64,000 nucleotides of DNA from an uncultured Spirochaetaceae bacterium. GTDB lineage: Bacteria > Spirochaetota > Spirochaetia > Treponematales > Treponemataceae. This document shows, in pieces, positions 105 to 57,035 of this stretch. Each line of letters opens with the position of its first letter. Within the stretch, counting starts at the first letter, position 1. The stretch lies in the NCBI GenBank assembly GCA_902778325.1, contig CACYWZ010000007.1, forward strand, positions 1 to 64,000. The letters run 5' to 3'. A program made the position numbers and the translations under genes. The notes under the pieces are model-generated. The model was not told the DNA's origin. It saw only the letters and a list, made by a program, of their open reading frames with translations, and ran no database searches.

Positions 105-338
105 TCTCCTCACATTGTTTAATGCGGGGTCGACTTTTTGATTTTTCTTGCTCACAATATTTCTTGTGAGTGCGTCCAGAAGAAAAAATAAGCTCACATT
201 ATTTAATGCGAGCTCGTTTTTTAATTTTTCTTGCCCGCATTGTTTAATGCGACCTCGTCCAAAAGAAAAAACGCTCCCGCATTGTTTGATGTGAGAGCGC
301 TTTTGAGTTTTTCAAGCCCACATTGTTTAATGCGAGGC
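105..338. repeat. 41-bp tandem array 1 (CACATT...AATGCG heads)
   Basis: Six units begin with CACATTGTTTAATGCG-like heads at about 111, 152, 195, 236, 278 and 319 (steps 41, 43, 41, 42, 41). Each head is an imperfect palindrome (CGCATT...AATGCG), followed by a T-rich tail ending in TTTTTCTTGC. The last unit runs into the minus-strand ABC gene and encodes its last codons and stop. With the REP-like fragment before it, the array fills the otherwise gene-free first 326 bases. Confidence 0.85.
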
Positions 339-1205
339 TTTCTCTTTTTCATCGAGAAGGCGATTCATGTCGCTGATGGACTTTGACGTCTCGTTGAGGT
401 CGCGCAAAGTGTATTCCTCGCCCTTTTTGAGCATGGCGACAGGCACACCGTACGCTTTTTCCAAGTCCGCGTCGGTCAGCACCTCATCAGGAGTTCCAAA
501 ACTCATATCGCGGTTCGGATAGAAAAGCAGAACCTTTTCTGCGAAGCGCTTCGTGAGGTCAAGCTCGTGCATGCTGATGTAAATCGTCGTTCCCGTCTTT
601 TTGCAGTACTCGCGAAGATACGAGAGCGCCTTTTCTTTCTGCGCGTACTCCATCGCAAAAAGCGGCTCGTCCATGAAAATCGACACAGAGCCGTAAAGAA
701 TCGAAAACGCGAGAAGAACGCGCTGGATTTCGCCTTTGCTTATGCCCGTGAGCGTGTGCGAAAGGACGGCAGAGAGCTCGAAAACATCGATAGTTTCGTC
801 CAAAAGGCTCTTTGTGCCGTCGAGGATTCCCGTTTTCTTTCCCTGATGTGTGCCGCAGGAAAAGACTTGGCTCAGCAAATCAGCGACTTTGTCCTGTGTC
901 TCAAATTCCATATTCTGATAGATGACGGAAGCATACATGTTTTTTGCCTCTCCCGTCATTGCGCTGATGTCTTTTCCCATGAGCAGCACTTTGCCGCTTT
1001 CGCTCACGAGGCGACCGCTTGCAAGAAGCATGAATGTGGATTTTCCGCTGCCGTTCGGTCCTACAAGGCTGACAAAACCGCCTGGAAGGGTTGCGGTGAA
1101 ATGCTCGAAGACAGGGCGAGGAACGATTGCGTTTCCGTCTGCGTCTGTGTCGCCATCGACTGGCGGGTATGTGAATGTTACGTCGTTAAATTCTATGAAG
1201 TTCAT
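327..1205 (-). CDS. ABC transporter ATP-binding protein, stand-alone
   Basis: A 292-residue ABC ATPase. It shows a Walker A motif (GPNGSGKST), a divergent signature (ISKGEIQR in place of LSGGQ), a Walker B (SIFMDEP) and an H-loop (SMHE). The signature Gly-Glu arrangement resembles cytosolic ATP-binding components of cobalt- or energy-coupling-type importers, but no permease or binding protein is adjacent, so the substrate is unknown. The start at 1205 is chosen because a -35/-10 promoter (1212..1240) lies just upstream and would sit inside the longer reading frame. The last three codons and the stop lie within a unit of tandem array 1, so the C-terminus appears to have been redefined by the repeat. 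It is divergent from the PFOR-like gene. Confidence 0.85.
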   Translation of the reverse strand: MNFIEFNDVTFTYPPVDGDTDADGNAIVPRPVFEHFTATLPGGFVSLVGPNGSGKSTFMLLASGRLVSESGKVLLMGKDISAMTGEAKNMYASVIYQNMEFETQDKVADLLSQVFSCGTHQGKKTGILDGTKSLLDETIDVFELSAVLSHTLTGISKGEIQRVLLAFSILYGSVSIFMDEPLFAMEYAQKEKALSYLREYCKKTGTTIYISMHELDLTKRFAEKVLLFYPNRDMSFGTPDEVLTDADLEKAYGVPVAMLKKGEEYTLRDLNETSKSISDMNRLLDEKEKASH

Positions 1206-1211
1206 ATTTCT

Positions 1212-1240
1212 ACAATACCAAACAATGGGACAAAAGTCAA
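1212..1240 (-). promoter_or_regulatory. Promoter of the ABC ATPase gene, predicted leaderless
   Basis: On the minus strand, TTGACT (1235-1240), a 17-nt spacer and TATTGT (1212-1217) lie 6 nt before the ATG at 1205. No Shine-Dalgarno sequence is present, so transcription should begin at or next to the start codon. Confidence 0.65.
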
Positions 1241-1249
1241 AAATGACGC

Positions 1250-1279
1250 TTGAAATTGCCCGCCTTGTCATTGTATCAT
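1250..1279 (+). promoter_or_regulatory. Promoter of the PFOR-like gene
   Basis: TTGAAA (1250-1255), an 18-nt spacer and TATCAT (1274-1279). The gene start at 1303 follows a GAGGA ribosome-binding site, so this transcript has a normal short leader, unlike the divergent ABC gene. Confidence 0.5.
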
Positions 1280-1302
1280 TACAAAAAGCGAGGACAAAAT
1301 TA

Positions 1303-4551: not shown

Positions 4552-4569
4552 TAATAACCGAGGATAATC

Positions 4570-5364: not shown

Positions 5365-5376
5365 ACTAAACATCAC

Positions 5377-8472: not shown

Positions 8473-8657
8473 TTCCTTATTTTGAGGAAAGTCGCTTTCA
8501 ATGAAGTCAGCATTCCTTATTTTGAGGAAACTCGTCTTTCGATGAAGTCAGTCTTCCTTATTTTGAGGAAAGTTGTCTTTCGATAAGGTCAGCATTCCTT
8601 ATTTTAAGGAAACTCGTCTTTCAATAAAGTCAGCCTTCCTTATTTCGTGGAAGTTCG
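8473..8657. repeat. 41-bp tandem array 2 (TTCCTTATTTTGAGGAA heads)
   Basis: Heads start at 8473, 8513, 8554, 8595 and 8636 (steps 40, 41, 41, 41). Each head is the palindrome TTCCT...AGGAA, followed by a tail resembling CTCGTCTTTCGATGAAGTCAG. The last copy is degenerate and runs into dispersed repeat sequence. The array lies between the toxin-antitoxin operon and the GNAT gene. Confidence 0.9.
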
Positions 8658-8658
8658 T

Positions 8659-8815
8659 GTGCCCGTCATGCTGAACTTGTTTCAGTATCTACTCTTTTAC
8701 AAATTGACATGGATTCCGAAACGAGTTCGGAATGACATTTTCTCTGTCATGCTGAGCGAAGTCGAAGGGAAGCCGAAGCACAGACCCCGAAACAAGTTCG
8801 CCCGTGACGGGGTGG
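8659..8815. repeat. Cluster of dispersed REP-like repeats
   Basis: Contains GTCATGCTGAACTTGTTTCA, the palindrome ATTCCGAAACGAGTTCGGAAT and GTCATGCTGAGCGAAGTCG in succession. Only repeat sequence is seen here. It ends next to the stop codon of the GNAT gene. Confidence 0.7.
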
Positions 8816-20085: not shown

Positions 20086-22593
20086 ATGGACAAACGGGTT
20101 TTTCTTCAAAAGATAAGAGCAATATTCATTTATCTTGGCTTTGTCTGCCTCGTTACATCAGCAATTATGATAATTCGAGTGTTCTCACAGCTTCGTCCAA
20201 AGACAGTGCAAGCGTTCCACATTCCAGCCGAAGCAAATCACCGCGTCTTGTTTTTGTGTTCCTATGACCCGCTCTATTTTACTTACGAAGCGCAAAGAAA
20301 AGGGCTTGAGAAAGTTTTGTACCCAAGAGGCATTGAGTACGATGTCATTTTTATGAACTCGCGCGAATGGAACACAGGCAGCGATATGGCGTTCTACAGG
20401 ACTTTTTTGGAGTCGCACCTTTCTGGGAAAAAGCACTACGACGGTATTTTTGCGGGCGATGATGCGGCGCTGAAGTTTGTCCTTGAATATCAGGATGTGT
20501 TTTTCAAAGACCTTCCGATTGTCTTTTTTGGCATAAACGACCTTGAACTAGCAGAAAAGGGTGCAAAGAACCCTTTTATCACAGGCTATTTTGAATATTC
20601 GTATTTCGTCGACACGCTGAACTTGGCGCGAAAGATTTTCCCTGAGAGAAATCGCATTGTGGCTCTTCGTGACAAAACAAACACTGGCATAGTCGAAGAA
20701 AACATCTTCAAAGAGCAAAAGGACAATTATCCTGATTGCATTTTCGTCAACATCGATACTTCAAGCCTCAGCCACGCGGAACTTTCGGAGCGCCTTGAAA
20801 TGTTCGGCAATGACGCTGTCATTTTTTACATGACGTGCTTCAGCGACAAGAACGGTCTTATCTCGATGGCGACAAGAACGAACATTCTTGCCAAGCACGC
20901 GAAAGTCCCGATTTTCAGAAGCTACATCGGAGCGGAAGGCGAGGGCGTCTTCGGCGGAGTCGCGCTTGATTTTGAGAAGCACTGTGAACTGGCTGCCAAA
21001 ACGATGGCAGATGTGCTTTCGGGCGATGATATTTCCAAAATCCCGCTCAACAAAGACTCTCCTGCCCGCATTTCGTTTGATTATATGCTCGCAAAAAAAT
21101 ACGGCGTTGATTTTTCGCTTATTCCAAAGAACGCCGTTTTCTTCAACAAGCCAGAATCCTTCCTTGAGCATTACGGAAGCCTTATCCCGCCAATTTCGCT
21201 TTTGGCGCTTTCATTCTTGTTTTTCCTCGGCGCTCTTCAAGCGTCCGCTGAAAACCTGCAGCTTTCAAACAAAGAACTCACTATCTCCCACGACAATCTT
21301 GCAAAATCACAGGCGGAGCTTCTTTACAAAACAGAGCACGATGAAGTCTTGGACATTTACAACAGACGCACCTCTCTTGAACTTATCGCAAAAAACTTTT
21401 CGCAGTCCGACGTATATTCCGTCGTTGTCTTCGACATCGACGGCTTCAAGGAGCTCAACGAAAACTATGGGCATCAGGTCGCCGACAGCGTTCTTCAGTA
21501 CCTCGTGGCAGAGTTCAAGGAAATGGAAAAAAAGAGAGGCTGGTTTCTTGCAAGATTTGGAGGCGACGAGTTTTTGATTGTCATCAGAAACGAGCATCTT
21601 AGCGTTTCTGAAGGAAGCGTCAAGGAGATTTTCGACATCGTGAGAACGCCTGTCCCGCTAGGCGACGAAAGCATCAGCATCACAGTCAGCATGGGCATCT
21701 CGAACTCTGACGGCATCACGAAGCCCGTTCAGCACGTCATCAACGCCGAAGTCGCCATGTATGAGGCGAAAGACAGAGGAAAAAACGGCGCTTTTATCTA
21801 CGGCGAAGAGATGAAAGAGCGAATGAGAGAGGAAGGGCGCATAAAAGACAAGCTGCTCGAAGCGTTCGACAACAACGGTTTTTATATGCTCTATCAGCCG
21901 CAGATAAACGCCGAAACAAAAGAGGTTTCAGGCTACGAGGCGCTTGTCCGAATGAAAACGCCGGGGATTTTTCCAGGTCAATTCATTCCCGTCGCAGAGC
22001 GCTCAGGCTGGATTTGGCGAATCGGTCGCATAACGACAGAACTCGTCATAAAGCAGCTCTCAGAATGGAAAGCGCAAGGAAAAACGCTCCACCCTGTCTC
22101 CGTCAACTTTTCGAGCAACCAGCTAAACGATTACGGCTATATCGGCTTCGTCGAAGATTTGCTGAAAAAATACGACGTTGAGCCAAGCCTTCTTGAAATC
22201 GAAATCACGGAAGGACTTTTCCTTGAAAAAAGCGTTCTTGCCGACCAGATTTTCAAGCGCTTCAAGGAAAAAGGCATCAGGCTTTTGATGGACGACTTTG
22301 GAACGGGCTACTCCTCGCTCGGCTATCTCACATACATTCCTGTCGACGTCATAAAGCTCGACAAATCGCTCGTTGACACATATCTCGTCGAAGGAAAAGA
22401 CTCGTTTATCCGAAACATCATAAATCTCATGCACGACCTCGGAAAAGAAATGATAATCGAAGGCGTCGAGCACTCATGGCAGTTCAATCGCCTGCGTGAG
22501 TTCGGCGCAGACGTAATTCAGGGCTACTATTTCTCAAAGCCAATCAGCGCAGAAGAAGCGATTGACTTCGCAGTCAAAACAGACGGTTGCTGA
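20086..22593 (+). CDS. GGDEF-EAL c-di-GMP enzyme with periplasmic sensor
   Basis: 835 residues. A signal anchor (about 10-32) and an extracytoplasmic domain (about 50-350) resembling an ABC-type substrate-binding sensor (VLFLCSYDPLYFTYEAQRKG, VIFYMTCFSDKNG) precede a second membrane segment (about 367-388). The GGDEF domain has an intact FGGDEF near residue 490. The EAL domain has an intact YEALVRM near 617 and DDFGTGYSSL near 735. Both synthesis and breakdown of c-di-GMP are therefore possible, with direction set by the sensor. It neighbours a second diguanylate cyclase (22830) and an MCP, and the window also has a PilZ receptor at 60323. Confidence 0.92.
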   Translation: MDKRVFLQKIRAIFIYLGFVCLVTSAIMIIRVFSQLRPKTVQAFHIPAEANHRVLFLCSYDPLYFTYEAQRKGLEKVLYPRGIEYDVIFMNSREWNTGSDMAFYRTFLESHLSGKKHYDGIFAGDDAALKFVLEYQDVFFKDLPIVFFGINDLELAEKGAKNPFITGYFEYSYFVDTLNLARKIFPERNRIVALRDKTNTGIVEENIFKEQKDNYPDCIFVNIDTSSLSHAELSERLEMFGNDAVIFYMTCFSDKNGLISMATRTNILAKHAKVPIFRSYIGAEGEGVFGGVALDFEKHCELAAKTMADVLSGDDISKIPLNKDSPARISFDYMLAKKYGVDFSLIPKNAVFFNKPESFLEHYGSLIPPISLLALSFLFFLGALQASAENLQLSNKELTISHDNLAKSQAELLYKTEHDEVLDIYNRRTSLELIAKNFSQSDVYSVVVFDIDGFKELNENYGHQVADSVLQYLVAEFKEMEKKRGWFLARFGGDEFLIVIRNEHLSVSEGSVKEIFDIVRTPVPLGDESISITVSMGISNSDGITKPVQHVINAEVAMYEAKDRGKNGAFIYGEEMKERMREEGRIKDKLLEAFDNNGFYMLYQPQINAETKEVSGYEALVRMKTPGIFPGQFIPVAERSGWIWRIGRITTELVIKQLSEWKAQGKTLHPVSVNFSSNQLNDYGYIGFVEDLLKKYDVEPSLLEIEITEGLFLEKSVLADQIFKRFKEKGIRLLMDDFGTGYSSLGYLTYIPVDVIKLDKSLVDTYLVEGKDSFIRNIINLMHDLGKEMIIEGVEHSWQFNRLREFGADVIQGYYFSKPISAEEAIDFAVKTDGC

Positions 22594-22640
22594 GCGAAGC
22601 CGAAGCACGGTTGCTGAGCGCAGTCGAAGCACGCTTGTTT
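22585..22640. repeat. Dispersed REP-like repeat, two copies
   Basis: GCTGAGCGAAGCCGAAGCAC and GCTGAGCGCAGTCGAAGCAC lie in tandem directly after, and overlapping, the stop of the GGDEF-EAL gene. Confidence 0.6.
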
Positions 22641-22667: not shown

Positions 22668-22822
22668 GAAAACATTTGTTTTTTGCCAATTCTACGTAGA
22701 AATGACGGACTTTGATTGTTTTTGCTCATTTCTACGCGAAAATTGACAGAATTTGACTGATTTTGCTCATTTCTACGTAGAACAAGCCGACTTCAGTTGT
22801 TTTCGCTCATTTTGCATTGAAA
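22668..22822. repeat. 41-bp tandem array 3 (TTCTACGTAGAA heads)
   Basis: Perfect palindromic heads TTCTACGTAGAA at 22690 and 22771, with degenerate copies at 22730 and near 22811 (steps 40, 41, 40). The tails are T-rich (TTTGATTGTTTTTGCTCAT). The first tail, GAAAACATTTGTTTTTTGC at 22668-22686, is identical over 19 bases to a tail of array 7 at 47199-47217, although the heads differ. Confidence 0.88.
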
Positions 22823-26649: not shown

Positions 26650-28011
26650 ATGGCTTTTGACTTCAACATCAAGAATGCTTATTGTAAGCGCGTATGGGAC
26701 GATGTTAGCACACGTTATGCTGACCAGGAGCACTTTCTTCAGGCTGCAGGGCTTGTTCTCGAAACAATCTCTCCTGTAGTTGACACAATGCCAGAGCTTG
26801 AGTCTATGGCTGTGCTTGAGCGCTTCGTAGAACCAGAGCGCATTATTATGTTCCGCGTTCCGTGGACAGATGACCAGGGCAAGCCGCACGTCAACCGTGG
26901 TTTCCGCGTTCAGTTCAACTCTGCAATCGGACCTTACAAAGGTGGTCTTCGCTTCAGCCCAGAAGTTGGTCTTGATGTTTTGAAGTTCTTGGGATTCGAG
27001 CAGGTTTTGAAGAACTCCCTCACAACTCTCCCAATGGGCGGTGGAAAAGGCGGTTCAGACTTCGACGCACACGGAAAATCAGACGGTGAAGTAATGCGCT
27101 TCTGCCAGAGCTTCATGACTGAGCTTTATCGCCACATCGGACCTGACACAGACGTTCCAGCAGGCGACAAGGGCGTTGGCGGACGCGAAGTTGCTTGGAT
27201 GTTCGGACAGTACAAGAGAATCAAGAACGAGTTCACAGGCGTTCTCACAGGAAAGGGCTTGGACTTCGGCGGTTCTCTCATTCGCCCAGAGGCTACAGGC
27301 TACGGCTTGATTTACTTTGCAGAGTGCATGCTTGCAAAGATGGGAACAGACTTCAAAGGAAAGACAGCCCTCATCTCTGGCGACGGAAACGTCGCGCAGT
27401 ATGCTTGCGAAAAGGCAACACAGCTCGGAGCAAAAGTTATCACACTTTCTGACTCATCAGGATATATCCTCGACGAAGACGGAATCGACGCAGAGAAGCT
27501 CGCATATGTCATGGAGTTCCGCGCAGCACACAAGAAGATTGACGAGTACGTCAAAAAGTATCCAAAAGCAAAGTTCTTCAAGGGCGAAAAGCCATGGGGA
27601 GTCAAGGCTGACCTCGCATTCCCTTGCGCAACACAGGACGAAATCTATCTTCAAGACGCAGAGAAGCTCGTTGCTAACGGCGTTAAGCTCGTTGCAGAGG
27701 GCGCAAATATGCCAACTCGCGAGGACGCAATCAAGTTCTTGCAGAAGAGCGGCGTAATCTTCGCGCCAGGAAAGGCTTCAAACGCTGGTGGCGTTGCAGT
27801 CAGCGGTCTTGAGATGAGCCAGAACTCAGAGCGTTTGTCTTGGACACGCGAAGAGGTTGACGCAAAGCTCAAGCAGATTATGACAAACATTCACGACAAT
27901 GCTTACGAGACAGCAGAGAAGTATGCGACAAAGCAGGATTATGTTTCTGGCGCAAACATCTACGGCTTCCTCAAGGTTGCTCGCGCAATGATGGCACAGG
28001 GCTTGGTGTGA
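26650..28011 (+). CDS. gdhA: NADP-type glutamate dehydrogenase
   Basis: 453 residues, the length of hexameric bacterial GDH. Motifs include RVQFNSAIGPYKGGLRF, the catalytic-lysine region LPMGGGKGGSDFD, VPAGDKGVGGREV, the cofactor-binding glycines in ALISGDGNVAQYA and the C-terminal PGKASNAGGVAVSGLEMSQN. It interconverts 2-oxoglutarate plus ammonia and glutamate in the cytoplasm, probably assimilating ammonia with NADPH. It uses a GAGGAG site and its codon usage is biased, suggesting high expression. It is a single-gene unit with its own promoter and terminator. Confidence 0.96.
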   Translation: MAFDFNIKNAYCKRVWDDVSTRYADQEHFLQAAGLVLETISPVVDTMPELESMAVLERFVEPERIIMFRVPWTDDQGKPHVNRGFRVQFNSAIGPYKGGLRFSPEVGLDVLKFLGFEQVLKNSLTTLPMGGGKGGSDFDAHGKSDGEVMRFCQSFMTELYRHIGPDTDVPAGDKGVGGREVAWMFGQYKRIKNEFTGVLTGKGLDFGGSLIRPEATGYGLIYFAECMLAKMGTDFKGKTALISGDGNVAQYACEKATQLGAKVITLSDSSGYILDEDGIDAEKLAYVMEFRAAHKKIDEYVKKYPKAKFFKGEKPWGVKADLAFPCATQDEIYLQDAEKLVANGVKLVAEGANMPTREDAIKFLQKSGVIFAPGKASNAGGVAVSGLEMSQNSERLSWTREEVDAKLKQIMTNIHDNAYETAEKYATKQDYVSGANIYGFLKVARAMMAQGLV

Positions 28012-28100: not shown

Positions 28101-28362
28101 TGTATACGAGCAAAAAATGCGCTGGGCGGCTCATGTACAATTTGTATACGAGGAGAAAACACTCAAAGTCGGCTCGTATACAATATGTATATGAGGGGAA
28201 AACGCGCTGGGCGACTCGTATACAAACTGTATACGAGGAGAAAACGCTCCAAGTCGAGCCGTATACAATATGTATATGAGTCAAAAACACGCTGGCGAGG
28301 TCGTATACAATATGTATACGGCTTACTTTTTCTATTGAAAGAAGCGTATACAATTTTTTATC
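28101..28362. repeat. 42-bp tandem array 4 (GTATACAATATGTATAC heads)
   Basis: Palindromic heads start at about 28135, 28176, 28218, 28261, 28303 and 28346 (steps 41, 42, 43, 42, 43), with a partial copy at 28101. Tails read like GAGGAGAAAACGCTCCAAGT. The right end, through CTATTGAAAGAAGCGTATAC, is nearly identical to the right end of array 8 at 52.1 kb. It fills most of the gap between gdhA and the next MCP. Confidence 0.92.
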
Positions 28363-28482: not shown

Positions 28483-30561
28483 ATGCAACTTGGAATCAAA
28501 CAAAAGATTACAATTTCTTCTATATTGTTAATCTTCGCAACGGCTTCAATAATCGTTTTGTTGAGCTATCAGAAATCTAAAAAAGAACTCACTGCAGCAG
28601 TCGAAGCGCAAAACTTGAGCATTGCTGAGAAAGTCGCCGCAGAAATCAAGGTCTTGAACAGCCGCGACTCAAAGATTCTTGAAACGCTTTCAAATCTCTC
28701 TGTAATCCGCGACCCAAACGTTGATATGTATGAAAAATGGAAGCTGATAAACACCGCGACTGGCGACAGCAAGAAGTTCTTCGGTCTTGGTATTTTTGAC
28801 ACGACAGGCTCTGGCTACGGCACAACTGGAGAATGGAACGATCTCCATGACCGCGAATACATCAAGAATGCAATGCAGGGCAAGCAGACAATAATGGACC
28901 CGAACTTTTCGCCGATAAACGGGCAGCTATGCACATTCCACGCTCTTCCTGTAAAAGACACGCGCGGAAGGCAGATTGGCGAAATGTCGCTTGTTGTCGA
29001 CTCTACGGACTTGTGCACTGAATTGACAAAAATCATTGTCGGCAAGGGAACACACCCGTTTATCATGAGCCGCAAAACTGGAAAATATGTTGCGCACACA
29101 AACAAGCAGAACGTAATCGACGGCAAAGTTGTTATCGATGTTGTTTCTGACGGGTTTGATGAAGTTATCAGAAAGGTGCTTACGGGCGCTTCTGGAACGG
29201 GTGTCTTTTTTGACCAGAACTCAAATCAAAAATACGCTGTTTCATACACTCCGATTGAGCGCACTGAGTGGAGTGTTGTCTGCTATGCGCCATACAAGGA
29301 CTTTTACAGCGGACTTGAAAGTCTTCTTAATACTACGCTTATCATCACGATTTTGGCATTGGTAGCGGCAATTTTGACTGTCTTTGTTGTTATAAACAAT
29401 GCTGTAAAGCCGCTCAAAGTCGTAAGCAAGGCAATCAACGGCATTGCGTCGGGCGAGGCGGACTTGACGAAGCGCATTGTCGCGACGACGAAAGACGAAA
29501 TCGGCAACGTTGTCGAGGGCTTCAACGCATTCAGCGCAAAATTGCAGAACATTATCGGCGACGTTAAGAACTCGAAGAACGAGCTTCTTGTTGCGGGCGA
29601 GGATATGAGCGCGATTTCAGAGGACACGGCGAGTTCTATCACCGAGATTATCGCAAATATCGAAAGCGTTCACAAACAGATTGTGGGGCAAACTGAAAGC
29701 GTTAGTCAGACGGCGGGCGCTGTCAACGAGATTGCTTCTAACATCGACTCTTTGGAGCGTATGATTGAAACGCAGTCTTCAGGCGTCACTCAGGCGAGCG
29801 CGGCTGTTGAGGAGATGGTTGGAAATATTTCTGCGGTTAGTGCTTCGATGGACAAGATGACGAAATCGTTTAAGGAGCTTCTTGTTAATTCTCAGGAGGG
29901 ATTTTCAAAGCAGCAGACTGTGAACGATTATGTTCAGCAGATTGAAATGCAATCGGCAATGCTTCAGGAAGCGAACAGTGCGATTTCCGACATCGCATCT
30001 CAGACGAATCTTCTTGCGATGAATGCGGCGATTGAAGCGGCTCACGCAGGGGATGCTGGAAAGGGCTTTGCTGTTGTTGCGGACGAAATCCGAAAGCTTT
30101 CGGAGACTTCGACGGCACAGTCAAAGACAATCGGAAATCAGCTCTCAAACATTAAGGAATCGATTCAGAATGTGGTTTCTGCGTCTGGTGAGGCGAGTGT
30201 TGTTTTCAAAACTGTGTCTGGAAAGCTCGAGGAGACAGACAATCTGGTTATGCAGATTAAATCGGCAATGGAGGAGCAGGAAGAGGGCTCAAAGCAGATT
30301 ATTGATGCTCTTCACAATATGAACGACAGCACTGTTGAGGTGCGCACTGCGTCTTCTGAGATGGCGGAGGGCAATCAGCTCATTCTTTCTGAGGTGAAGC
30401 AGTTGCAGAACGCGACTTTTGAGATGAAGAGCAGCATGGAAGAGATGTCGATTGGCGCAAAGAAGATTAATGACACAGGGGCTGCCTTGAGCACGGTTTC
30501 TTCTCGTGTTCAAGAGGCAATTATCTCTATTGGCTCTCAGGTTGACCAATTCACTGTTTAG
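28483..30561 (+). CDS. Methyl-accepting chemotaxis protein with dCache and HAMP
   Basis: 692 residues from the ATG at 28483, which follows GAGAGAGG. Membrane segment about 9-30; dCache sensor about 35-280 (with [20 protein letters not shown] and [18 protein letters not shown]); second segment about 285-307; HAMP 308-365 ([16 protein letters not shown]). The long cytoplasmic coiled coil carries a canonical tip, [20 protein letters not shown] and [16 protein letters not shown]. It probably senses an amino acid or similar small ligand and signals to CheA. The coding region is single-gene with a strong terminator. Confidence 0.95.
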
Positions 30562-36666: not shown

Positions 36667-38298
36667 TCAATGTTGAAGCCGCTCAGAAAGTTTTAGATTC
36701 TCCGCATAATCAACAGGACAATCAATAATCGCAGGAACATCTTGCGAAAACGCTTCTTTCAAGACAGGCACTAAGTCCTCTGCTTTCGTGATTCTGTAGC
36801 CCTTGAGATGCATACTCTCCGCCATCTTCACAAAGTCTGGATTAGAAAAATCAACGCAACAGCTAGAACCATAGCGCTCTTCCTGCTTCCACTTGATAAG
36901 CCCATAATGCGCATCGTTAAAAATCAACGTCACAAACGGAATCTTGTAGCGCAAAGCGGTTTCCAATTCCTGACTATTCATCATAAAACCACCGTCGCCG
37001 CTCACCGCAAGAACCTTTCGCTCAGGGCAGACAAGTTTTGCCGCAAGCGCGCCAGGAACAGCAATTCCCATTGTCGCAAAGCCGTTTGAAATAATGCAAG
37101 TGTTCGGATAATAGCAATGATAGTGACGCGCAATCCACATTTTGTGAGCGCCAACGTCCGAAATCAAAATATCATTTTCAGCCAAGACGCTTCTAATGTC
37201 GCTAAGGATTTTCTGCGGCTTCATCGGAAAAGAATTGTCATTTGCATAGCCATCTTCCTCCTGAACAATCTCGTTTCGGATTTTGAGCGCCCAAGTCGGC
37301 TCGGATTTTGGCTTGCAATACGATTCAATTTCGCGAAGGGCATAAGAAATATCGCCAATAACTTCCTCATCAGGCTGATAAAGTTTGTTGATGTGGTTTT
37401 CGTTTGCGTCAATGTGAATAATCTTGTGCTGGACTTTACTGTTCCATCTCGATGGCGCAAACTCCACGATATCGTAGCCCACAGCGATAACAAGGTCTGC
37501 CATCTCAATCGCCTTGTCTTGATAATCACGTTGCGGAATACCGATTGTGCGAAGCGAATACTCGCTCGTGAACGGAACGATACCCTTTGCCATCATCGTA
37601 TTGATAACGGGGATTTTCAACTTTGCCGAAAAGTCTCGAAGCGCGTCCGAAGCGTTATTTCGAACCGCGGAGTGTCCTGCAAGAATGATTGGATTTTTTG
37701 CCTTTTCAATCAAAGAAGCTGCGGCTCGAATGCAATCTTTGCTTGGAAGAACCTGATTTATCTTGTGGTGCTTGATTGGAATGCGTCCAGCGCCCTCAGG
37801 GACTTCCATTGCGGCGATATTGCACGGAAGGTCAACATAGCACGCGCCAGGCTTTTCGCTTTCTGCATATTTGAACGCAAGGCGTATGATTTCGTTTACT
37901 GTGTCAGGGCGAACAATCTGCTTGCTCCGTTTTGTGATTGGCGTGAACATTCCAACCAAATCAAGAAACTGATGAGATGTGATGTGCATTCTGTCCGTTC
38001 CGACTTGCCCCGTAATCGCAACAAGAGGAGCGCCGTCAGAGTTCGCGTCAGCCACTCCTGTAACAAGGTTCGTCGCTCCTGGTCCTAAAGTCGAAAGACA
38101 AACGCCCGCTTTCCCCGTAAGCCGCCCGTAGACGTCCGCCATAAAAGCCGCGCCCTGCTCGTGTCGAACAGTTATAAAGCGAATCGAAGATTTCTCAAGC
38201 GCTTTTATGACCTCAAGGTTTTCTTCGCCTGGGATTCCAAAAATATATGTGACGCCCTCATTTTCAAGGCACGCAACTAAAACTTCTGCTGTATTCAT
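36667..38298 (-). CDS. alsS: Acetolactate synthase, catabolic AlsS-type
   Basis: 543 residues, thiamine-diphosphate dependent. Motifs: FGIPGEENLEVI, catalytic Glu in VRHEQGAAFMADVYG, STLGPGATNLVTG, the ThDP-binding GDGGFMMNSQELETA with FNDAHYGLI, and SNGFATMGIAVPGALAAK. It condenses two pyruvates to acetolactate. No ilvN regulatory subunit follows and the FAD-binding region looks short, so the AlsS type (acetoin-forming) is likelier than anabolic IlvB; IlvB remains possible. An intrinsic terminator lies in its leader. The ATG follows an AGGAGC site. Confidence 0.88.
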   Translation of the reverse strand: MNTAEVLVACLENEGVTYIFGIPGEENLEVIKALEKSSIRFITVRHEQGAAFMADVYGRLTGKAGVCLSTLGPGATNLVTGVADANSDGAPLVAITGQVGTDRMHITSHQFLDLVGMFTPITKRSKQIVRPDTVNEIIRLAFKYAESEKPGACYVDLPCNIAAMEVPEGAGRIPIKHHKINQVLPSKDCIRAAASLIEKAKNPIILAGHSAVRNNASDALRDFSAKLKIPVINTMMAKGIVPFTSEYSLRTIGIPQRDYQDKAIEMADLVIAVGYDIVEFAPSRWNSKVQHKIIHIDANENHINKLYQPDEEVIGDISYALREIESYCKPKSEPTWALKIRNEIVQEEDGYANDNSFPMKPQKILSDIRSVLAENDILISDVGAHKMWIARHYHCYYPNTCIISNGFATMGIAVPGALAAKLVCPERKVLAVSGDGGFMMNSQELETALRYKIPFVTLIFNDAHYGLIKWKQEERYGSSCCVDFSNPDFVKMAESMHLKGYRITKAEDLVPVLKEAFSQDVPAIIDCPVDYAENLKLSERLQH

Positions 38299-38378: not shown

Positions 38379-38409
38379 TTTTTGTTTTTTTATTCAAGCG
38401 TCATTCCGC

Positions 38410-38640
38410 TTTGGGAAAAGTCGGATTTTAAAAAAACAGCGCTTTCCTGTTTTGGGCAAAGCCAAATTTTTAAAAAATAGCGTTTTTCCGTTTTGGGCAA
38501 AGCCAAATTTTTAAAAAACAGCCTTTTTCCATTTTGGGCAGAGTCATTTTTTAAAAAAACAGCCTTTTTCCGTTTTGGGCAGAGTCATTTTTTTTAAAAG
38601 CAGGTTTTTCTGTTTTGGGTAAAGCCATTTTTAATTTTTG
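38410..38640. repeat. 41-bp tandem array 5 (CCGTTTTGGGCAAAG heads)
   Basis: TTGGG words at 38411, 38452, 38493, 38534, 38575 and 38615 (steps 41, 41, 41, 41, 40). The head is CCGTTTTGG-like and the tail TTTTTAAAAAACAGCCTTTTT. It fills the space between the alsS leader and the amino-acid transporter promoter, i.e. between divergent operons. Confidence 0.93.
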
Positions 38641-38777: not shown

Positions 38778-39530
38778 ATGTCTGAGCAGAAAGTAATGAT
38801 AGATATGCAGCATATCACAATGAAATACGGTGAACTTACTGTTCTGGACGATATTTCGCTCCAGATTGCAGAAGGGAGCAAAACCGTTATCATTGGTCCA
38901 AGCGGAGCGGGAAAAAGCACACTGTTGCGCTGTATGAATCTGTTTGAAAAGCCTTGTGGTGGAACGGTTTGTGTGGGCGGTCAAGTTCTCACGAACCAAA
39001 AGAACAAGGTGCTTTACAAAGCGCGACAGGAAATCGGAATGGTTTTTCAGGGCTTCAATCTTTATGCGCACAAGACTGTCCTTGAGAATCTGACGTTTGC
39101 ACCAATTCTTTTGCGGCACGAGCCAAAGGAAAGCGTGATTGAGCGCGCAATGGAAAATCTTTCGAATGTTGGGCTTGCTGCAAAAAAGGATTCTTATCCG
39201 AGTCAACTTTCAGGCGGACAGCAGCAGCGTGTTGCGATTGCGAGGGCGCTGACAATGCGTCCAAAGGTGATTTTGTTTGATGAGCCAACGAGCGCGCTTG
39301 ATCCAGAAATGATTAGCGAGGTTCTTGGCATTATGGAGGATGTCGCAAAAGAAAACATCACGATGGTGTTTGTGACGCACGAAATGGGCTTTGCGCGTCA
39401 CATCGCAGACAGGCTTTTGTTCTTGGAAGGCGGTCACATTATCGAAGATGACACACCTGAAAACGTGATTGAAAACCCTAAGAACGAAAGAACAAAACAA
39501 TTCTTCAGTAAGATTTTGAAATCTAATTAG
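38778..39530 (+). CDS. Polar amino-acid ABC transporter, ATP-binding protein
   Basis: 250 residues from the ATG at 38778, which follows TGGAGG. Walker A GPSGAGKST, Q-loop MVFQGFNLY, signature LSGGQQQRVAIARAL, Walker B VILFDEPTSALDPEM and H-loop VTHEMGFA. The MVFQGFNLY and LDPEM words are typical of the GlnQ/HisP/ArtP group. It powers uptake by the two permeases encoded downstream. First gene of the operon, behind an attenuator. Confidence 0.93.
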   Translation: MSEQKVMIDMQHITMKYGELTVLDDISLQIAEGSKTVIIGPSGAGKSTLLRCMNLFEKPCGGTVCVGGQVLTNQKNKVLYKARQEIGMVFQGFNLYAHKTVLENLTFAPILLRHEPKESVIERAMENLSNVGLAAKKDSYPSQLSGGQQQRVAIARALTMRPKVILFDEPTSALDPEMISEVLGIMEDVAKENITMVFVTHEMGFARHIADRLLFLEGGHIIEDDTPENVIENPKNERTKQFFSKILKSN

Positions 39531-42333: not shown

Positions 42334-42590
42334 GGACGCTCGCTTTTCTAATTTTTTGCCCATTTCAATTCGTATATTGTGTTTTTCAATCGCGTCATTT
42401 GAATAGGCAAAAAGGTCAAAACCGATAATCTCAAAACCGTGCTTTTTGTAAAACGAAATCGCTTTGAAATTGTAACTCTGCGTTTCAAGTACTGCCATTC
42501 TTGCACTTGTGCGCGCTCCGCCAACAATCTCGCAAGAAGAAAATCTTTTCGCTGTTCCAGCATTTTTTTTCCGAAATTGCTTCCTGCAAA
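42328..42590 (-). pseudogene. GNAT acetyltransferase remnant, cut by tandem array 6
   Basis: The C-terminal part of a GNAT enzyme is readable on the minus strand (VLETQSYNFKAISFYKKHGF and EIIGFDLFAYSNDAIEK). The part just before it (GKKMLEQRKDF, the acetyl-CoA loop) is in another frame, so there is a frameshift. Further upstream the coding sequence is gone and 41-bp repeats begin exactly at this point. The gene's 5' part has been lost or replaced by the array. Confidence 0.8.
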
Positions 42591-42857
42591 CTGCGGCAGC
42601 CAATTTTTATTCCGAAATTGCCTCCTGCAAGTTGCGGCAGTCAATTTTTATTCCGAAATTGTTTCCTGCAAGTTGCGGCAGTCAATTTTTGTTCCGAAAT
42701 TGCTTCCTGCAAACTGCGGGAGCCAATTTTTATTCCGAAATTATTTCCTGCAAACTGCGGCAGTCAATTTTTATTCCGAAATTGCTTCCTGCAAGCTGCG
42801 GGAGTCAATTTTTGTTCCGAAATTGCTTTCTGCAAGCTGCGGCAGCCAATTTTTGCT
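42570..42857. repeat. 41-bp tandem array 6 (CCGAAATTG...CTGCGGCAG units)
   Basis: CCGAAATT words at 42571, 42612, 42653, 42694, 42735, 42776 and 42817, an exact 41-bp step six times. Each unit includes a near-palindrome around CTGCAAGCTGCGGCAG and the T-rich tail TCAATTTTTATT. Point variants are shared between non-adjacent units (CTGCGGGAG versus CTGCGGCAG), which suggests gene-conversion-like homogenisation. All three frames are open by chance because of the repeat. Confidence 0.95.
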
Positions 42858-45509: not shown

Positions 45510-47045
45510 GTGTTTTCGCTAAAAATAAAGCTCAATAATGTTTCGCTCAGGGCTTTTTTGTATCTCCTTGACCAGAAAAACCTGAAGCGGGAATTGAGCA
45601 ATACGACCGTCTGCGACTATATTCTCCAGTCTTATCCTTTTTTTATGAAAGGATACAAAGACACAGCCTCGTTCCGCTCAGGATATGCGGGAAATTTCTC
45701 GCTTCTCTTTGATGCATCGTGTCCGCAAGACGGCAAAATGAACAAACTCACAAAGACTCTTGAAAAAGCGCTCGAAAAAGCAATGAAACGCCTCTCTAGC
45801 GCCCGCGTCTCATTTTCCGAAAGCGAGAACGGACTGCCGTCGCACTGCACGATAAGTGGCATTCCAGACGAAGAGACGCTCAAGACACTTTGCGTTTTCT
45901 TTGTGCTAAAGCCAATAAACGCCACTCTCCGACTAAAAGCCGTGGACGAGAAAAGCGGCTGGATTCCGCTGCTGAAAAAGCGCCTTTCAATCACAGAGCC
46001 TTTCTTGCCGAACAGCGCAGTCTCAAGCGGACGCGGACAAACTGGAACAAGCGCCATCTTGAGCCGATACACAATCTTTAATTTTGGCGGAAACTGGTTC
46101 GACGTTCTAAAACCGTCGTATTTCAACTTTGAGAACCTCAGATACAAACTCTTTTTGCACTCGCTCATGATTGAGCAGCCAAATCTTTATTACGTGATTG
46201 TCAAAGCTGACCGCTACGACTTTAGCGTGGAGCGGGTCTTTGCCGAAGGCATCACGATGAAAGGCGAAGAGCCTGTGCTTAACACACAATGGATTTCGGA
46301 GAGTTTTTCGTTCAACGACGTTCTCGTCGTCAAAAAGGACGACTTCAAAAAACTAATCATCTCGCAAGTTTCTCTTCCCGAAAGCCTGCAATATCAGTTC
46401 ACAGTCGTCGGAAACACGCTCGTTTTCTCTGACGGAGCGATGATTGACCTCACGAGCGTCCTCGTTACGAAAAAAGAAATCCTCGAAAAAAGCGCGAGCA
46501 TCAATCCGAACATAACATTCGACCTCAAAGAAGAAAGCCTCATCAGAGAGCAGCACACAAAGCAAAAGGACGCTCCAAAAGCAGATTCTATGATGAGGCG
46601 CTTGGCAATAAACGGCGAAGAAAGCAATACTATAATGAAGTTTATCGAAAAGAGCTTCTTGGGAAAGCTGCTCATCAACGATTACAAGCGAAGCGAGAAC
46701 GGGCTTATCGTTACAGGCGAGCGAAAGACGTGCCTTATCTTGTATAATGGCACAAAGTTCCCTGACCTTGTTTGCATTTTTGCCGAAGACGCCGAGCGAA
46801 CTGAAAGCCGAGGAGGGCGGACGCTTCCTGAATACGCGTCTTACATTTGGAGAGAATATGACAAGTTCAAGCACAAGATGTTCATGGTGGAAGCGGAGTT
46901 CAATCTTTCTTCGTTCAAAAGCCACGATATTTCTGCTGATTATGTTATGCAAAGCCGATATATTTTTTGCGAAAACCGCACGAGCGAATGTTATGTCTCA
47001 AAGTTCGGTGTTCACATTCCAGCGGTGAGCATAAAAGATTTGTGA
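45510..47045 (+). CDS. Unrecognised protein coupled to MCP
   Basis: 511 residues from a GTG three bases after the MCP stop, without a clear ribosome-binding site, so translation is probably coupled. No membrane segment or signal peptide is evident and no family is recognised. The middle contains beta-rich stretches (YYVIVKADRYDFSVERVF, YQFTVVGNTLVFSDG) and a linker of charged residues. Because of its position it might act in the signalling of this receptor (inference). The 41-bp array 7 begins at its stop codon. Confidence 0.75.
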   Translation: MFSLKIKLNNVSLRAFLYLLDQKNLKRELSNTTVCDYILQSYPFFMKGYKDTASFRSGYAGNFSLLFDASCPQDGKMNKLTKTLEKALEKAMKRLSSARVSFSESENGLPSHCTISGIPDEETLKTLCVFFVLKPINATLRLKAVDEKSGWIPLLKKRLSITEPFLPNSAVSSGRGQTGTSAILSRYTIFNFGGNWFDVLKPSYFNFENLRYKLFLHSLMIEQPNLYYVIVKADRYDFSVERVFAEGITMKGEEPVLNTQWISESFSFNDVLVVKKDDFKKLIISQVSLPESLQYQFTVVGNTLVFSDGAMIDLTSVLVTKKEILEKSASINPNITFDLKEESLIREQHTKQKDAPKADSMMRRLAINGEESNTIMKFIEKSFLGKLLINDYKRSENGLIVTGERKTCLILYNGTKFPDLVCIFAEDAERTESRGGRTLPEYASYIWREYDKFKHKMFMVEAEFNLSSFKSHDISADYVMQSRYIFCENRTSECYVSKFGVHIPAVSIKDL

Positions 47046-47320
47046 TTTTTGCTTTTCCTGTTTTGGAAATGTTCAAAAACATTTGTTTTTCGCTTTTTCC
47101 CGTTTTGGAAAAGACCAAAAACTTTTGATTTTGCATTTTCCCGTTTTGGAAAAGTCCGAAAACACTTGTTTTTTGCTTTTCCCGTTTTGGAAAAGTCCGA
47201 AAACATTTGTTTTTTGCTTTTCCCGTTTTGGAAAAGTCCAAAAACACTTGATTTTGCTTTTTCCCGTTCTGGGAAAGTCCGAAAACATTTGTTTTTTGCT
47301 TTTCCCGTTTTGGAAAAGAG
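47045..47320. repeat. 41-bp tandem array 7 (CCCGTTTTGGAAAAG units)
   Basis: TTTTGG words at 47061, 47103, 47144, 47185, 47226, 47267 and 47308 (steps 42, then 41 five times). Units read CCCGTTTTGGAAAAGTCCGA then AAACATTTGTTTTTTGCTTT. The array starts directly at the stop codon of the preceding gene and ends about 50 bases before the adenine methylase. Its head resembles that of array 5 and its tail is shared with array 3. Confidence 0.95.
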
Positions 47321-51896: not shown

Positions 51897-52140
51897 AGAA
51901 TTTTCTCCTCGTGTACACATTGTATACGAGGAGAAAACGCCTCAGGCAAGCAATATACAATATGTATACGGCTCGACTTTGCGTGTTTTTTGCAAATATA
52001 CATATTGTATATGACTAGATTTTTCTATTGATAGAAAATATACAGTTTGTATACGACTGGCTTTGAGCGTTTTCGGCTCATATACATATTGTATACGGCT
52101 CACTTTTTCTATTGAAAGAAGCGTATACAATTTTTCTCAA
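51897..52140. repeat. 42-bp tandem array 8 (GTATACAATATGTATAC heads)
   Basis: Palindromic heads begin at about 51912, 51954, 51997, 52039, 52081 and 52124 (steps 42, 43, 42, 42, 43). It belongs to the same sequence family as array 4, 24 kb away, and shares its right end (CACTTTTTCTATTGAAAGAA then GCGTATACAATTTTT). With the msrA leader it fills the 440-base gap between msrA and the HD-hydrolase gene. Confidence 0.92.
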
Positions 52141-52162
52141 GCCTTTTTCATTTTGGCAAAGC

Positions 52163-52195
52163 AAAAAAAATCCGCCAAGACTAGAATCTGGCGGA
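52163..52195 (-). terminator. Terminator of the nth-mscS-HD operon
   Basis: On the minus strand TCCGCCA (52189-52195) pairs with TGGCGGA (52171-52177) and is followed by eight T. Confidence 0.88.
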
Positions 52196-52215
52196 AAACT
52201 CAACTAAAAACAAAC

Positions 52216-53322: not shown

Positions 53323-53390
53323 TCTGTCCCCCTTATATATCGCGCTCAAAACTTTAGCAGCATTCGTTTCAGGCGCACTATTCCTCTCTC

Positions 53391-54296: not shown

Positions 54297-54298
54297 TT

Positions 54299-54943: not shown

Positions 54944-54978
54944 ACTCCTCCGCCCGCGAAAGAAATTTCGTCCAAAAA

Positions 54979-56145
54979 TTATATCTCAGCTCTCAAAGCG
55001 TCGACTTTGTCTGTCTTTTCCCATGGGAACTCTGAGCGGCCAAAATGTCCGTAAGCCGCAGTTGCAGAGTAAATCGGGCGCTTCAAATCGAGCGTGCGAA
55101 TAATTCCCGCTGGCGTGCAATCGAAGACCTTCTTCACAGCAGTCTCGATTTTCTCAACAGGAGCTTTCTCGCTTCCGAATGTCTCGACCATGATTGAGAC
55201 AGGGAAAGGAACGCCGATAGCATAAGCGAGTTGCACTTCAGCTCTGTCTGCCAAATCCGCAGCAACGATGTTTTTTGCAATGTAGCGCGCCATGTATGCG
55301 CCAGAGCGGTCAACTTTGCTCGGGTCTTTTCCGCTGAAAGCGCCGCCTCCGTGTCGTCCCATTCCGCCATAAGTGTCAACGATAATCTTTCGTCCAGTAA
55401 GACCTGTGTCGCCGAAAGGTCCGCCGATTTCAAAGTTGCCAGTCGGATTGATGAAGAACTTTGTGTTCTCGTCCAAAAGTCCAGTCGGGTCAAGAACAGG
55501 GTGAATAATCTGCTTGATAATCGTCTCGCGAATCTGCTCCTGTGTGACCTCAGGACCGTGCTGATGGCTAATGACGACAGTATCGATTCTCTTCGGCGTG
55601 TGTCCCTCGTATTCAACCGTAACCTGTCCCTTTGCGTCAGGTCTGAGCCAGCCGAGAGTGCCGCTCTTTCTCAATTCAGTCGCTTTGAGCATAAGTTTGT
55701 GAGAGTACATAATCGGAGCTGGCATAAGCTCAGGCGTTTCCTTGCAAGCAAAGCCGAACATCATTCCCTGGTCGCCTGCGCCCTGCTGCCCCTCATACTC
55801 TTTCAAGCCCTTTCCAACGACGCCCTGATTTATATCCTTTGACTGCTCGTGAATCATATTCAAAACAGCCATAGAATCGCAATCCAAGCCATAAGCGGCA
55901 TTCGTGTATCCGATTTTGCGAGCAACACTGCGCGCAATGTCCTGCACATCAACGTAGCCATTCGTTGTAACCTCGCCGCCTACCAAAACAAGAGCGGTTG
56001 AAGCGAAAGTTTCTACTGCAACGTGGCTTTCCGGGTCATTTTTCAGACAAGCGTCCAGAATAGCATCAGAAATCTGGTCGCAAAGTTTGTCAGGATGTCC
56101 CTCTCCGACAGACTCAGAAGTAAAAAGATAATGTCTGTTGTCCAT
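54979..56145 (-). CDS. metK: S-adenosylmethionine synthetase
   Basis: 388 residues, full length. It has [52 protein letters not shown] and a conserved C-terminal [12 protein letters not shown]. It makes SAM from methionine and ATP. Upstream, a short hairpin GTATCT-TC-AGATAC sits directly before the GAGGAG site. A recognisable SAM riboswitch was not seen. It lies in the direction of the nth operon, 35 bases away, but may have its own transcript. Confidence 0.97.
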
Positions 56146-56148
56146 TTT

Positions 56149-56172
56149 TTCTCCTCGTATCTGAAGATACTG
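56149..56172 (-). promoter_or_regulatory. Hairpin abutting the metK ribosome-binding site
   Basis: On the minus strand the 14-nt hairpin GTATCTTCAGATAC ends immediately before GAGGAG and the ATG. It might modulate ribosome access. No larger riboswitch fold was recognised. Confidence 0.35.
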
Positions 56173-56295
56173 AAAATCTTGAAAGTTGCGCTTCTAAAAA
56201 TCTCCAAAACCCAACAAATTTCGAGATTTTAATCTAATTTTTATGTACGAAACTTTCGCTTTATAGTATACTACAAATATCAAAATTAGCAACCG

Positions 56296-56312
56296 CCCAC
56301 CACACAAGTGGG
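56296..56312 (+). promoter_or_regulatory. Hairpin before the CBM48 gene
   Basis: CCCAC (56296-56300) and GTGGG (56308-56312) form a 5-bp stem with a 7-nt loop, ending 5 bases before the AAGGAG site. It may affect translation of the next gene. Confidence 0.35.
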
Positions 56313-56328
56313 GATAAAGGAGTTTTCT

Positions 56329-56676
56329 ATGGCTTTGAAAAAGTCGTTTTCGAAGGACAAAACGGAATGCACTGTAACCTTTACAGTGTCTCAGGAAGCC
56401 GCACATGGTGCTGAGCAAATCACCATCGCAGGCGATTGGAACAATTGGAGCAGCACAGAGAATCCTTTGAAGAAAGGAAAAGACGGCTCTTTTTCTATAA
56501 AGGTCAAACTGCCTGCTGGAAGGGAATATCAGTTCAGATATCTCCTAGACGGAAAAAACTGGGAAAACGAATGGGAAGCTGACAAATACATTCCAGCGCC
56601 ATTCAGCCACACAGATAACTCTGTGGTCGAGTGTTACGTCCCAGAAAAAGCCGAAAAGAAATCTGCAAAGAAATAA
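56329..56676 (+). CDS. CBM48/AMPK-beta-like glycogen-binding protein
   Basis: 115 residues from the ATG at 56329 (AAAGGAG site). A single carbohydrate-binding domain of the isoamylase-N/AMPK-beta type is shown by ITIAGDWNNWSSTENPLKK and YQFRYLLDGKNWENEWEADK, with the conserved Trp residues and Asn. Basic C-terminal tail (EKAEKKSAKK). It probably binds alpha-glucan or serves as a scaffold for a glycogen enzyme; no such enzyme lies nearby. There is no signal peptide. Confidence 0.88.
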   Translation: MALKKSFSKDKTECTVTFTVSQEAAHGAEQITIAGDWNNWSSTENPLKKGKDGSFSIKVKLPAGREYQFRYLLDGKNWENEWEADKYIPAPFSHTDNSVVECYVPEKAEKKSAKK

Positions 56677-56811
56677 ACAAGTCTTTCGGATTTTCTTACT
56701 TTCAAAAACTTCTATTATTATTAACTCTTTTCCATTGAAAAATGAAAATCCTGAAAGCACGCGTGTTTTTCAGGATTTGTTTTTCTTGTCTTTTTCACTT
56801 TTCAAAGTCAA

Positions 56812-57035
56812 ATCCTTGCTCCCACGCACTCACTTTTCGTTGGGGAGTTCTTGGGAGTGCTCCAAAGGCTTCCCTAAGTGATTTTCTTGTCGAGGGAGTG
56901 CTCCAAAGGCTTGCTTTTTTGTTAGGGAAGGCTTTTCCATTCTCCCAATAGAATCTTTTTCTTTAGGGAACGCTTGGGAGTGCTCCCACGAGCCAAAAAC
57001 AAAAATTTTGCTCTTTGGAGCGCTCCCACAAGCAA
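56812..57035. repeat. 41-bp tandem array 9 (GGGAGTGCTCC heads)
   Basis: Near-palindromic heads GGGAGTGCTCC at 56853, 56894, 56976 and 57017 (steps 41, 82, 41), with degenerate copies at 56812 and 56935. Tails include AAAGGCTTCCCTAAGTGATT. It is the least regular array. With short flanks it fills the 434-base gap between the CBM48 and rsmE genes. Confidence 0.75.

Follow-up and report, generated by a model that had tools for sequence, protein, structure and literature searches.

Intergenic tandem arrays with 41-42-bp units, many sequences and a 3-kb spacing rule in a probable Treponema genome

Results

Nine tandem arrays in a 64-kb window

We analysed a stretch of 64,000 nucleotides (hereafter the window) contained in a 3.35-Mb assembly with 173 contigs and a completeness of 94%. 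The best named match of FabV, with 78% amino-acid identity, was to Treponema zioleckii; most of the next-best matches were to Treponema of rumen and gut samples. Judged from these named relatives, the host is probably a rumen/gut-type Treponema. Genes were called with our own codon-score caller, and tandem arrays were located with Tandem Repeats Finder (TRF) and a lag scan. The arrays of the window are as follows, each with the method that detected it.

Array 1, 105..338, 3' of gene 327-1205 (minus strand): about 5.5 units with a period of 83 (42), CTCACATTGTTTAATGCGAG-type palindrome (TRF period 83)
Array 2, 8473..8657, flanked by two called minus-strand genes: 41-bp units, TTCCT..AGGAA palindrome (TRF, lag scan)
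Array 3, 22668..22822, at convergent gene ends: 40/41-bp units, CATTTCTACGTAGAAATG palindrome (TRF period 41)
Array 4, 28101..28362, neighboured by a glutamate-dehydrogenase-type gene (26650-28011) and a gene at 28483-30561, both on the plus strand: period 85 (42), TGTATACGAG palindromes (TRF, lag scan)
Array 5, 38397..38640, in the divergent intergenic region of genes 36667-38298 (minus) and 38778-39530 (plus): 41-bp units (TRF, lag scan)
Array 6, 42562..42857: seven 41-bp units (TRF, lag scan)
Array 7, 47033..47320, overlapping the final bases of gene 45558-47045: seven 41-bp units, CTTTTCCCGTTTTGGAAAAG palindrome (TRF, lag scan)
Array 8, 51897..52140: period 42/84-85, TATACAATATGTATA-type palindromes (TRF, lag scan)
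Array 9, 56812..57035, between two plus-strand genes: degenerate 41-bp units, GGGAGTGCTCC-type palindromes (lag scan)

The initial annotation had described nine tandem arrays with a step of 40-43 bp in all of them and of exactly 41 bp in most. TRF recovered eight of the nine; array 9 was missed at score 50 and is only partly contained in the merged array set. In the lag scan, the lag identity of each array was compared with the best of 200 Markov shuffles of that array, and the best lag exceeded the shuffles in all nine cases, with uneven clarity. Four arrays (8473, 38410, 42570 and 47045) had a clean 41-bp period with lag-41 identities of 0.77-0.89, and array 9 only just passed its shuffles (lag-41 identity 0.45, shuffle maximum 0.43). 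The remaining four did not show a clean 41-bp step. Array 1 reached an identity of 0.63 at lag 83 (shuffle maximum 0.43). Array 3 was best at lag 81 with 0.65, its values at lags 40 and 41 (0.47 and 0.49) not rising above the shuffle maximum of 0.53, and array 8 was about equal at lags 85 and 42 (0.47 and 0.46; shuffle maximum 0.42). The double period was dominant in arrays 1 and 4 (83 and 85), where by eye a non-palindromic module flips orientation alternately. The common step of 40-43 bp was therefore roughly right, with some best lags at 81, 83 and 85, and the value of exactly 41 bp applied to four arrays clearly and to the ninth weakly.

The view that the unit sequences of these arrays are mostly unrelated was partly wrong. 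Arrays 4 and 8 belonged to one sequence family, arrays 3 and 7 (22668 and 47045) had a 19-mer in common, and arrays 5 and 7 (38397 and 47033) fell into one similarity component in a comparison that included the flanks. Relatives were also found outside the window: array 2 had a homologous array at L119:6540-6799, array 3 a related unit at L098:12138, array 5 a relative on the opposite strand at L089:6215-6438, and array 6 had 17 further matches in its own genome, on both strands at some places. The T-rich tail ascribed to each unit was not a general feature, since array composition was 0.297 A and 0.290 T.

The unit length is locked across the genome, the unit sequence is not

We surveyed 864 kb of the same genome, made up of the window and 40 stretches of 20 kb each. 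Merging of TRF rows gave 106 arrays with a median length of 207 bp (interquartile range 158-239). On the chromosome contigs used for the spacing analysis below, the density was one array every 7.8 kb, and the whole genome holds well over a hundred arrays. Among TRF rows with a score of at least 80, period 41 accounted for 70 and period 42 for 52, followed by periods 82-84 (41), 21 (13), 123/126 (10) and 63 (4); other periods were fewer, for example 23 (7) and 24 (4). Taking all TRF rows with a period of at least 12, 195 of 216 lay near multiples of 20.75 bp, and these were retained. A genome-wide peak at 41 bp in the unit-length distribution had been set beforehand as a test of the initial annotation, and the peak was present. 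In 689 kb (contigs C1-C4 plus the window), lag 41 was found in 51 segments and lag 42 in 33, against a median of 1 for unrelated lags, a set in which one masked run raises every lag's count by about one. Lags 23 and 69 (nine segments each), 46 (six) and 105 (five) were present as well. After removal of one coding array with period 102, 105 arrays remained, with five as the most common unit count (30/105). A clear unit could be assigned in 92 of them: 41 bp in 48 arrays, 42 bp in 40 and 21 bp in four. These values support the early suggestion that the unit spans about four DNA turns.

We next grouped the 92 unit consensuses by single linkage. At SW>=20, a score reached by 0.13% of shuffled pairs, they formed 37 groups (17 groups and 20 singletons), the largest with 13 members, which bears out the notion of one unit length with many sequences. 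Lowering the threshold to SW 18, 16 and 14 reduced the number of groups to 25, 15 and 4, while the share of linking shuffled pairs was 0.2%, 0.33% and 1.4%. Because the groups merge in this way, there is room for a distant common descent. A compositional sub-period of 10-11 bp, including the helical 10.5 bp, was not found in the arrays, so there was no sign of intrinsic curvature.

Placement and stem mismatches point to DNA

The mostly intergenic placement seen in the window held genome-wide. The gene context of the 106 arrays was co-directional in 41 cases, convergent in 26 and divergent in 22, and 17 were unassigned (11 over low-scoring ORFs, three at stretch ends and three within high-scoring ORFs). 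Arrays in divergent regions lay at least 40 bp away from called starts. Coding repeats were rejected for most arrays, in agreement with the initial annotation, given that 41 cannot be divided by 3 and that 42-bp arrays showed no excess at third codon positions (mean z 0.08, n=28, two above 2). One of the two 21-bp arrays in the same test (L104:7469) had a z of 3.7. Stem mismatches on the sense strand of the 41 co-directional arrays comprised 27 G.T and 23 A.C, and the corresponding single stem changes in 57 arrays numbered 86 and 84. This lack of strand bias, together with the occurrence of arrays in all gene orientations, argues for DNA rather than RNA as the level of action. RNA hairpins and Rho-independent terminators were discarded on the same grounds, and with them the RNA role that the initial annotation had considered.

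Dyad symmetry is common among the arrays

The palindromes first noticed in the window units proved to be real by two comparisons. Per 41 bp, the 105 arrays contained 0.257 palindromes scoring at least 7; the rate was 0.088 in 137 intergenic regions elsewhere and 0.060 in shuffled sequence. In the best-controlled comparison, that of arrays with their own reverse complement (masked run excluded), 52 of 75 real arrays exceeded z=3, as did 11 of 150 synthetic controls, which were tandem arrays built of 41/42-mers from array-free intergenic DNA. In the window, dyad z was 4.7 for array 1, 9.1 for array 4 and 8.5 for array 7. Of the 92 unit consensuses, 58% matched their own complement at a z above 2. 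With 23 of 75 arrays missing the z>3 level, dyad symmetry is common among the arrays, not universal.

In a set of 76 that still included the masked run, lags of 82-85 stood clearly above 41-42 in nine arrays, and eight of these nine double-period arrays had a dyad z above 3. A double period combined with dyad symmetry is what would be expected of a module that alternates in orientation. By eye, the palindrome sequence switches within the array at L102:15802-16142 with the 41-bp register unbroken, and at L179:13382-13712 two 21-bp palindrome types are joined, bridged by a 42-bp row. Covariation at stem positions within 57 arrays gave a ratio of 1.06, against 0.96-1.06 in slid controls, and 33 double changes at stems were paired and 42 were not. 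Being no better than the slid controls, this result argues against strong maintenance of pairs inside arrays. In arrays of two congeneric genomes, G213 and G082, some variants pair by eye.

Few arrays lie within 3 kb of one another

The strongest new fact, absent from the initial annotation, is a 3-kb spacing rule. Spacing was simulated on 665 kb with the masked stretch excluded (85 arrays, 79 gaps), and the null model was a class-weighted random choice of intergenic regions. Five of the 79 gaps (6.3%) were under 3 kb, against 29.7+-4.3% expected, and none of 5000 simulations gave a value as low. An exponential with fitted mean described the gaps after subtraction of 3 kb (KS p 0.90), but not the gaps without the floor (3e-6). 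A minimum distance without a maximum is better explained by repulsion than by a need for regular service.

The same scarcity was seen region by region. Among convergent regions, none of the 25 within 3 kb of another array held one, compared with 27 of the 52 beyond. For all boundary regions (convergent, divergent, and those co-directional regions with at least 60 bp) the counts were 6/146 within 3 kb and 69/173 farther away. In 28 other stretches, which had not been used in setting the 3-kb value but had entered an initial, coarser test of spacing, 4 of 40 gaps were under 3 kb and arrays occupied 6/109 near and 53/139 far boundary regions. Since the Fisher tests on these region counts assume independent regions, which is not quite true here, the simulation serves as the formal test.

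All 23 pairs of neighbouring arrays separated by 3-5 kb were unrelated in sequence, and related pairs made up 6 of 81 adjacent pairs at any distance (masked run counted as one array). The unrelatedness of the 3-5-kb neighbours indicates that the exclusion is not sequence-specific. Local duplicates and paired 21-bp arrays are among the nine gaps under 3 kb. Another dispersed intergenic repeat (GTCAT type) had a CV of 1.05, and 7 of its 35 gaps lay below 3 kb, close to the expectation for an exponential of its own mean, with the masked run left in the contigs; its regularity is not in excess. Most of this evidence comes from one metagenome-type assembly, in which some contigs start or stop at arrays, as expected if near-identical copies break assembly. 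We see no way in which such breaks could produce the distance rule within contigs.

Arrays are dispersed within the genome and present in few relatives

Among the 105 arrays, 166 pairs were similar at E<=1e-8, in both orientations; this comparison took in 250-bp flanks, and flanking repeats may partly join its two largest components. Among the 45 pairs listed, homology stops at or near the array edges in many and reaches into the flanks in some. Ten pairs had between-locus identities of 0.80-0.92, a gapped value set against ungapped within-array identity. The arrays at L089:193 and L089:12202 were 0.92 identical between loci and 0.73/0.71 within, and by eye they were collinear copy by copy; for the window array at 8473 and L119:6540 the values were 0.91 between and 0.78/0.68 within. 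In the eight other pairs between-locus identity was similar to, mixed with or below the within-array values. A one-unit-shift control was not discriminating, because free end gaps allow realignment. Judged from these alignments, copying of whole arrays between loci is evident for some arrays, not for all, and amplification of local sequence, one mechanism proposed in the initial annotation, cannot have been the sole process.

TRF rows of 40-43 bp at score 80 were absent from 15-100-kb samples of 15 congeneric and five same-order genomes (one of these, G018, showed one 41-bp row when sampled again), and likewise from ten more congeneric genomes sampled at 20-40 kb each and three at about 2 kb each. 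A long array of our genome matched two of 201 genomes, its own included. With an array of the second carrier (G082) as query, four of 198 matched: G082 itself, our genome, G213 and G122. These three congeneric genomes carry 40/41-bp arrays with sequences that differ from ours, and the period differs by 1 (40, 41, 42) among groups and species. Arrays look sparser in these carriers; in G213 and in G122, two of three 20-kb stretches were without an array. A 21-bp array matched five of 392 genomes of the phylum, its own included; a genome of another family (G339) matched almost the entire array at two places with 76% identity, and in two other genomes the match was limited to 32-39 bases. No clean orthologous empty site was obtained in relatives, which match at just ~63-81% DNA identity. 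Protein similarity between the surroundings of the L218 and L204 arrays was absent beyond the array region, L204 being merely 3.1 kb long. Phage and plasmid collections gave no match with one array as query in each.

Candidate proteins

Y1_Tnp (PF01797) had no matches in the assembly (G000, 94% complete) and matches in 10 of 30 genomes searched, so RAYT-driven REP activity was set aside. The rve integrase core was found in none of G000, G082 and G213, and gave one sub-threshold match in G122. HU/IHF-family proteins are present in three copies, compared with 1-6 in 13 other genomes, and without a contrast their copy number was dropped as a distinguishing feature. Canonical ParA and ParB are missing from the assembly, in which neither PF02195 above cut-off nor a close ParA match was found. 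It does contain one perfect 16-bp copy of the canonical chromosomal parS, a pattern that is missing from two genomes with ParB (G017, G018) and is thus not a sure marker. The perfect parS makes an assembly gap likelier than a loss of ParABS, and the idea that the arrays are replacement centromeres after such a loss was abandoned.

Discussion

Our tentative reading, held with less than even confidence, is that the arrays are putative DNA docking sites, multi-site platforms read by geometry and not by letters. They would form a genome-wide set of DNA-level sites of about 200 bp, usually with about five units of 41-42 bp, and four helical turns per unit would place the dyad-symmetric sites on one helix face. 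The occupant may be an abundant dimeric or wrapping DNA-binding protein with low sequence specificity; candidates are DNA gyrase (as on E. coli BIME-2) and an HU-type or partition-type protein. Selection would retain the period and the dyads, the letters being free to drift and homogenised within each array, and occupied arrays would keep each other away over about 3 kb. In favour of docking sites are the locked period across many sequences, the dyad symmetry, the palindrome switch in register at L102:15802-16142, the stem mismatches without strand bias, the placement in all gene orientations and the spacing. Against them speak the HU/IHF copy number without contrast, the missing 10-11-bp sub-period and stem covariation, the 23 of 75 arrays below the dyad threshold, the lack of a maximum distance, the merging of sequence groups at lower thresholds, and sampled relatives that do without arrays, or nearly so. 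A broader and somewhat more doubtful version is a chromosome-wide reader of geometry: phased 41-42-bp dyads would be recognised regardless of letters by an architectural or transpositional machine that measures about 3 kb, so that unrelated arrays exclude each other. To our knowledge, the dispersed bacterial repeats described so far are recognised by sequence. In these arrays it is length, symmetry and mutual distance that are conserved, and not sequence, which suggests that the cell reads geometry. The distance rule is sharp enough for testing. Whether it stems from a geometry-reading architectural protein, a structure-recognising transposase or repulsion linked to replication, it provides a natural system for assaying how kilobase distances are measured on a bacterial chromosome.

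Internal repeats serve as transposase-binding sites in Tn7- or Mu-type ends. The arrays could likewise be small non-autonomous mobile elements, their 41-bp repeats binding a transposase and the 3-kb exclusion reflecting target immunity. Arrays are homologous to one another in both orientations, and in many pairs the similarity stops at or close to the array edges; this agrees with mobility, as do abundance in one lineage and random spacing with exclusion. Ordinary sequence-specific immunity, however, fails on the unrelated neighbours at 3-5 kb (0/23), and neither a Y1 transposase nor an rve integrase core was found in the 94%-complete assembly. Since exclusion holds between unrelated sequences, the transposase would need to recognise structure. 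The exponential tail past the floor favours repulsion, which makes a structure-recognising mobile element with immunity the main rival, although we consider mobile elements rather unlikely. Repulsion could also arise from recombination or hairpin processing, if two structure-forming arrays in one single-stranded replication gap were deleted or broken and survivors lay mainly more than ~3 kb apart. The sharp drop below 3 kb regardless of sequence and the exponential beyond it agree with this; the called stems, however, are by general knowledge short for stable extrusion, and we hold this to be very unlikely.

Neutral minisatellites would account for the shared length by descent: one ancestral 41-bp array would have spread and been homogenised within arrays, its sequences diverging and its length staying nearly constant because indels are rarer than substitutions. 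The chaining of 88 of the 92 consensuses at a low-stringency threshold that also links 1.4% of shuffled pairs, and period shifts of 1 across groups and species, are in keeping with such a history, which predicts neither dyad symmetry nor the 3-kb exclusion between unrelated arrays and seems to us improbable. The least probable proposal, highly unlikely in our judgement, places the arrays at the RNA level, as tandem terminators or stabilisers of mRNA 3' ends. It draws on the hairpin-capable units and the many arrays near stop codons, and it conflicts with the 22 of 106 arrays in divergent regions, with the near-equal sense-strand G.T and A.C counts, and with Rfam, which at gathering scores matched only two tRNAs over the window.

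Such arrays were not described in the titles and abstract openings of the literature searched, a coverage outside which most subscription journals lie. BIME-2 elements are tandem palindromic units that bind DNA gyrase (PMC2817692). Like BIME-2/REP elements of E. coli and Pseudomonas, the arrays consist of tandem units and occur as many intergenic palindromic arrays per genome, and nine of 76 have the double period expected of alternating modules, the alternation being seen by eye. REPs, in contrast, are conserved-sequence families tied to RAYT transposases. Here many groups share length and symmetry, Y1_Tnp was not found in the assembly, and arrays seldom lie within 3 kb of one another. With neither a RAYT nor a conserved sequence, the arrays do not qualify as REP/BIME elements. 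The F-plasmid centromere sopC (parS-F) is built from twelve tandem copies of a 43-bp unit and includes ten 16-bp inverted repeats to which ParB-F binds (PMC6238139). Its unit geometry is nearly the same, with tandem units of about four turns that carry an inverted repeat, as most of our arrays do, not all; sopC, however, is one site with one sequence on one plasmid, unlike an array every 7.8 kb with many sequences. BIME-2 and the sopC centromere, both of which work as multi-site DNA platforms, are the best analogues.

Bacterial intergenic minisatellites of the MIRU/VNTR type are also short tandem arrays between genes, with unit lengths that differ by locus. We know of no dyad or spacing rule for them. 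The arrays share their short tandem form and intergenic placement, and differ in the locked unit length.

A possible separate class of 21-bp arrays

Arrays with units of about 41 bp are scarce within ~3 kb of one another, and part of the exceptions to this rule were 21-bp arrays, found in the sampled stretches L095, L096, L104 and L105. These 21-bp arrays may constitute a separate class. A third-position signal was detected in one of the two that we tested. We also observed that the arrays of these four stretches are open in several frames and would encode heptad-like peptides such as FPKLGQ and LKESLLNIEE. A 21-bp array was matched at 76% identity over nearly its full length at two loci (C83:73108 and C42:3933) of G339, a genome from another family of the same phylum, and this sequence match suggests either transfer or convergence.

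Other repeats and partition elements in the genome

The genome assembly to which the window belongs (G000) carries a second dispersed intergenic repeat with ends of the GTCATxCTGA type, an example of which lies at window positions 8637-8760. Across the 689 kb comprising contigs C1-C4 and the window, the motif gave 54 matches, 47 of them extragenic. When co-occurrence was counted there over intergenic regions of at least 60 bp, the repeat was present in 18 of 80 array-bearing regions, compared with 11 of 225 array-free regions. A further short repeat lies beside array 3 (40/41-bp units, 22668-22822):

22583-22637: short 24-bp repeat, end of the EAL/GGDEF gene adjoining array 3

One perfect parS site, TGTTTCACGTGAAACA, is located at C2:127251, and despite its presence neither canonical ParA nor canonical ParB had a match in the G000 assembly. 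Canonical ParB was found in all 13 of the other genomes searched.

Tandem arrays in relatives

In Treponema saccharophilum there are tandem arrays with periods of 116 and 153 bp (L006, 9330-9965 and 16028-16505), inside which palindromes were discerned by eye; these are possibly a related phenomenon with a different unit length. On a Spirochaetaceae metagenome contig (L030, 2912-3148 and 4727-5071) we observed arrays with periods of 21/22, 44 and 88 bp, which are likewise close to whole helical turns.
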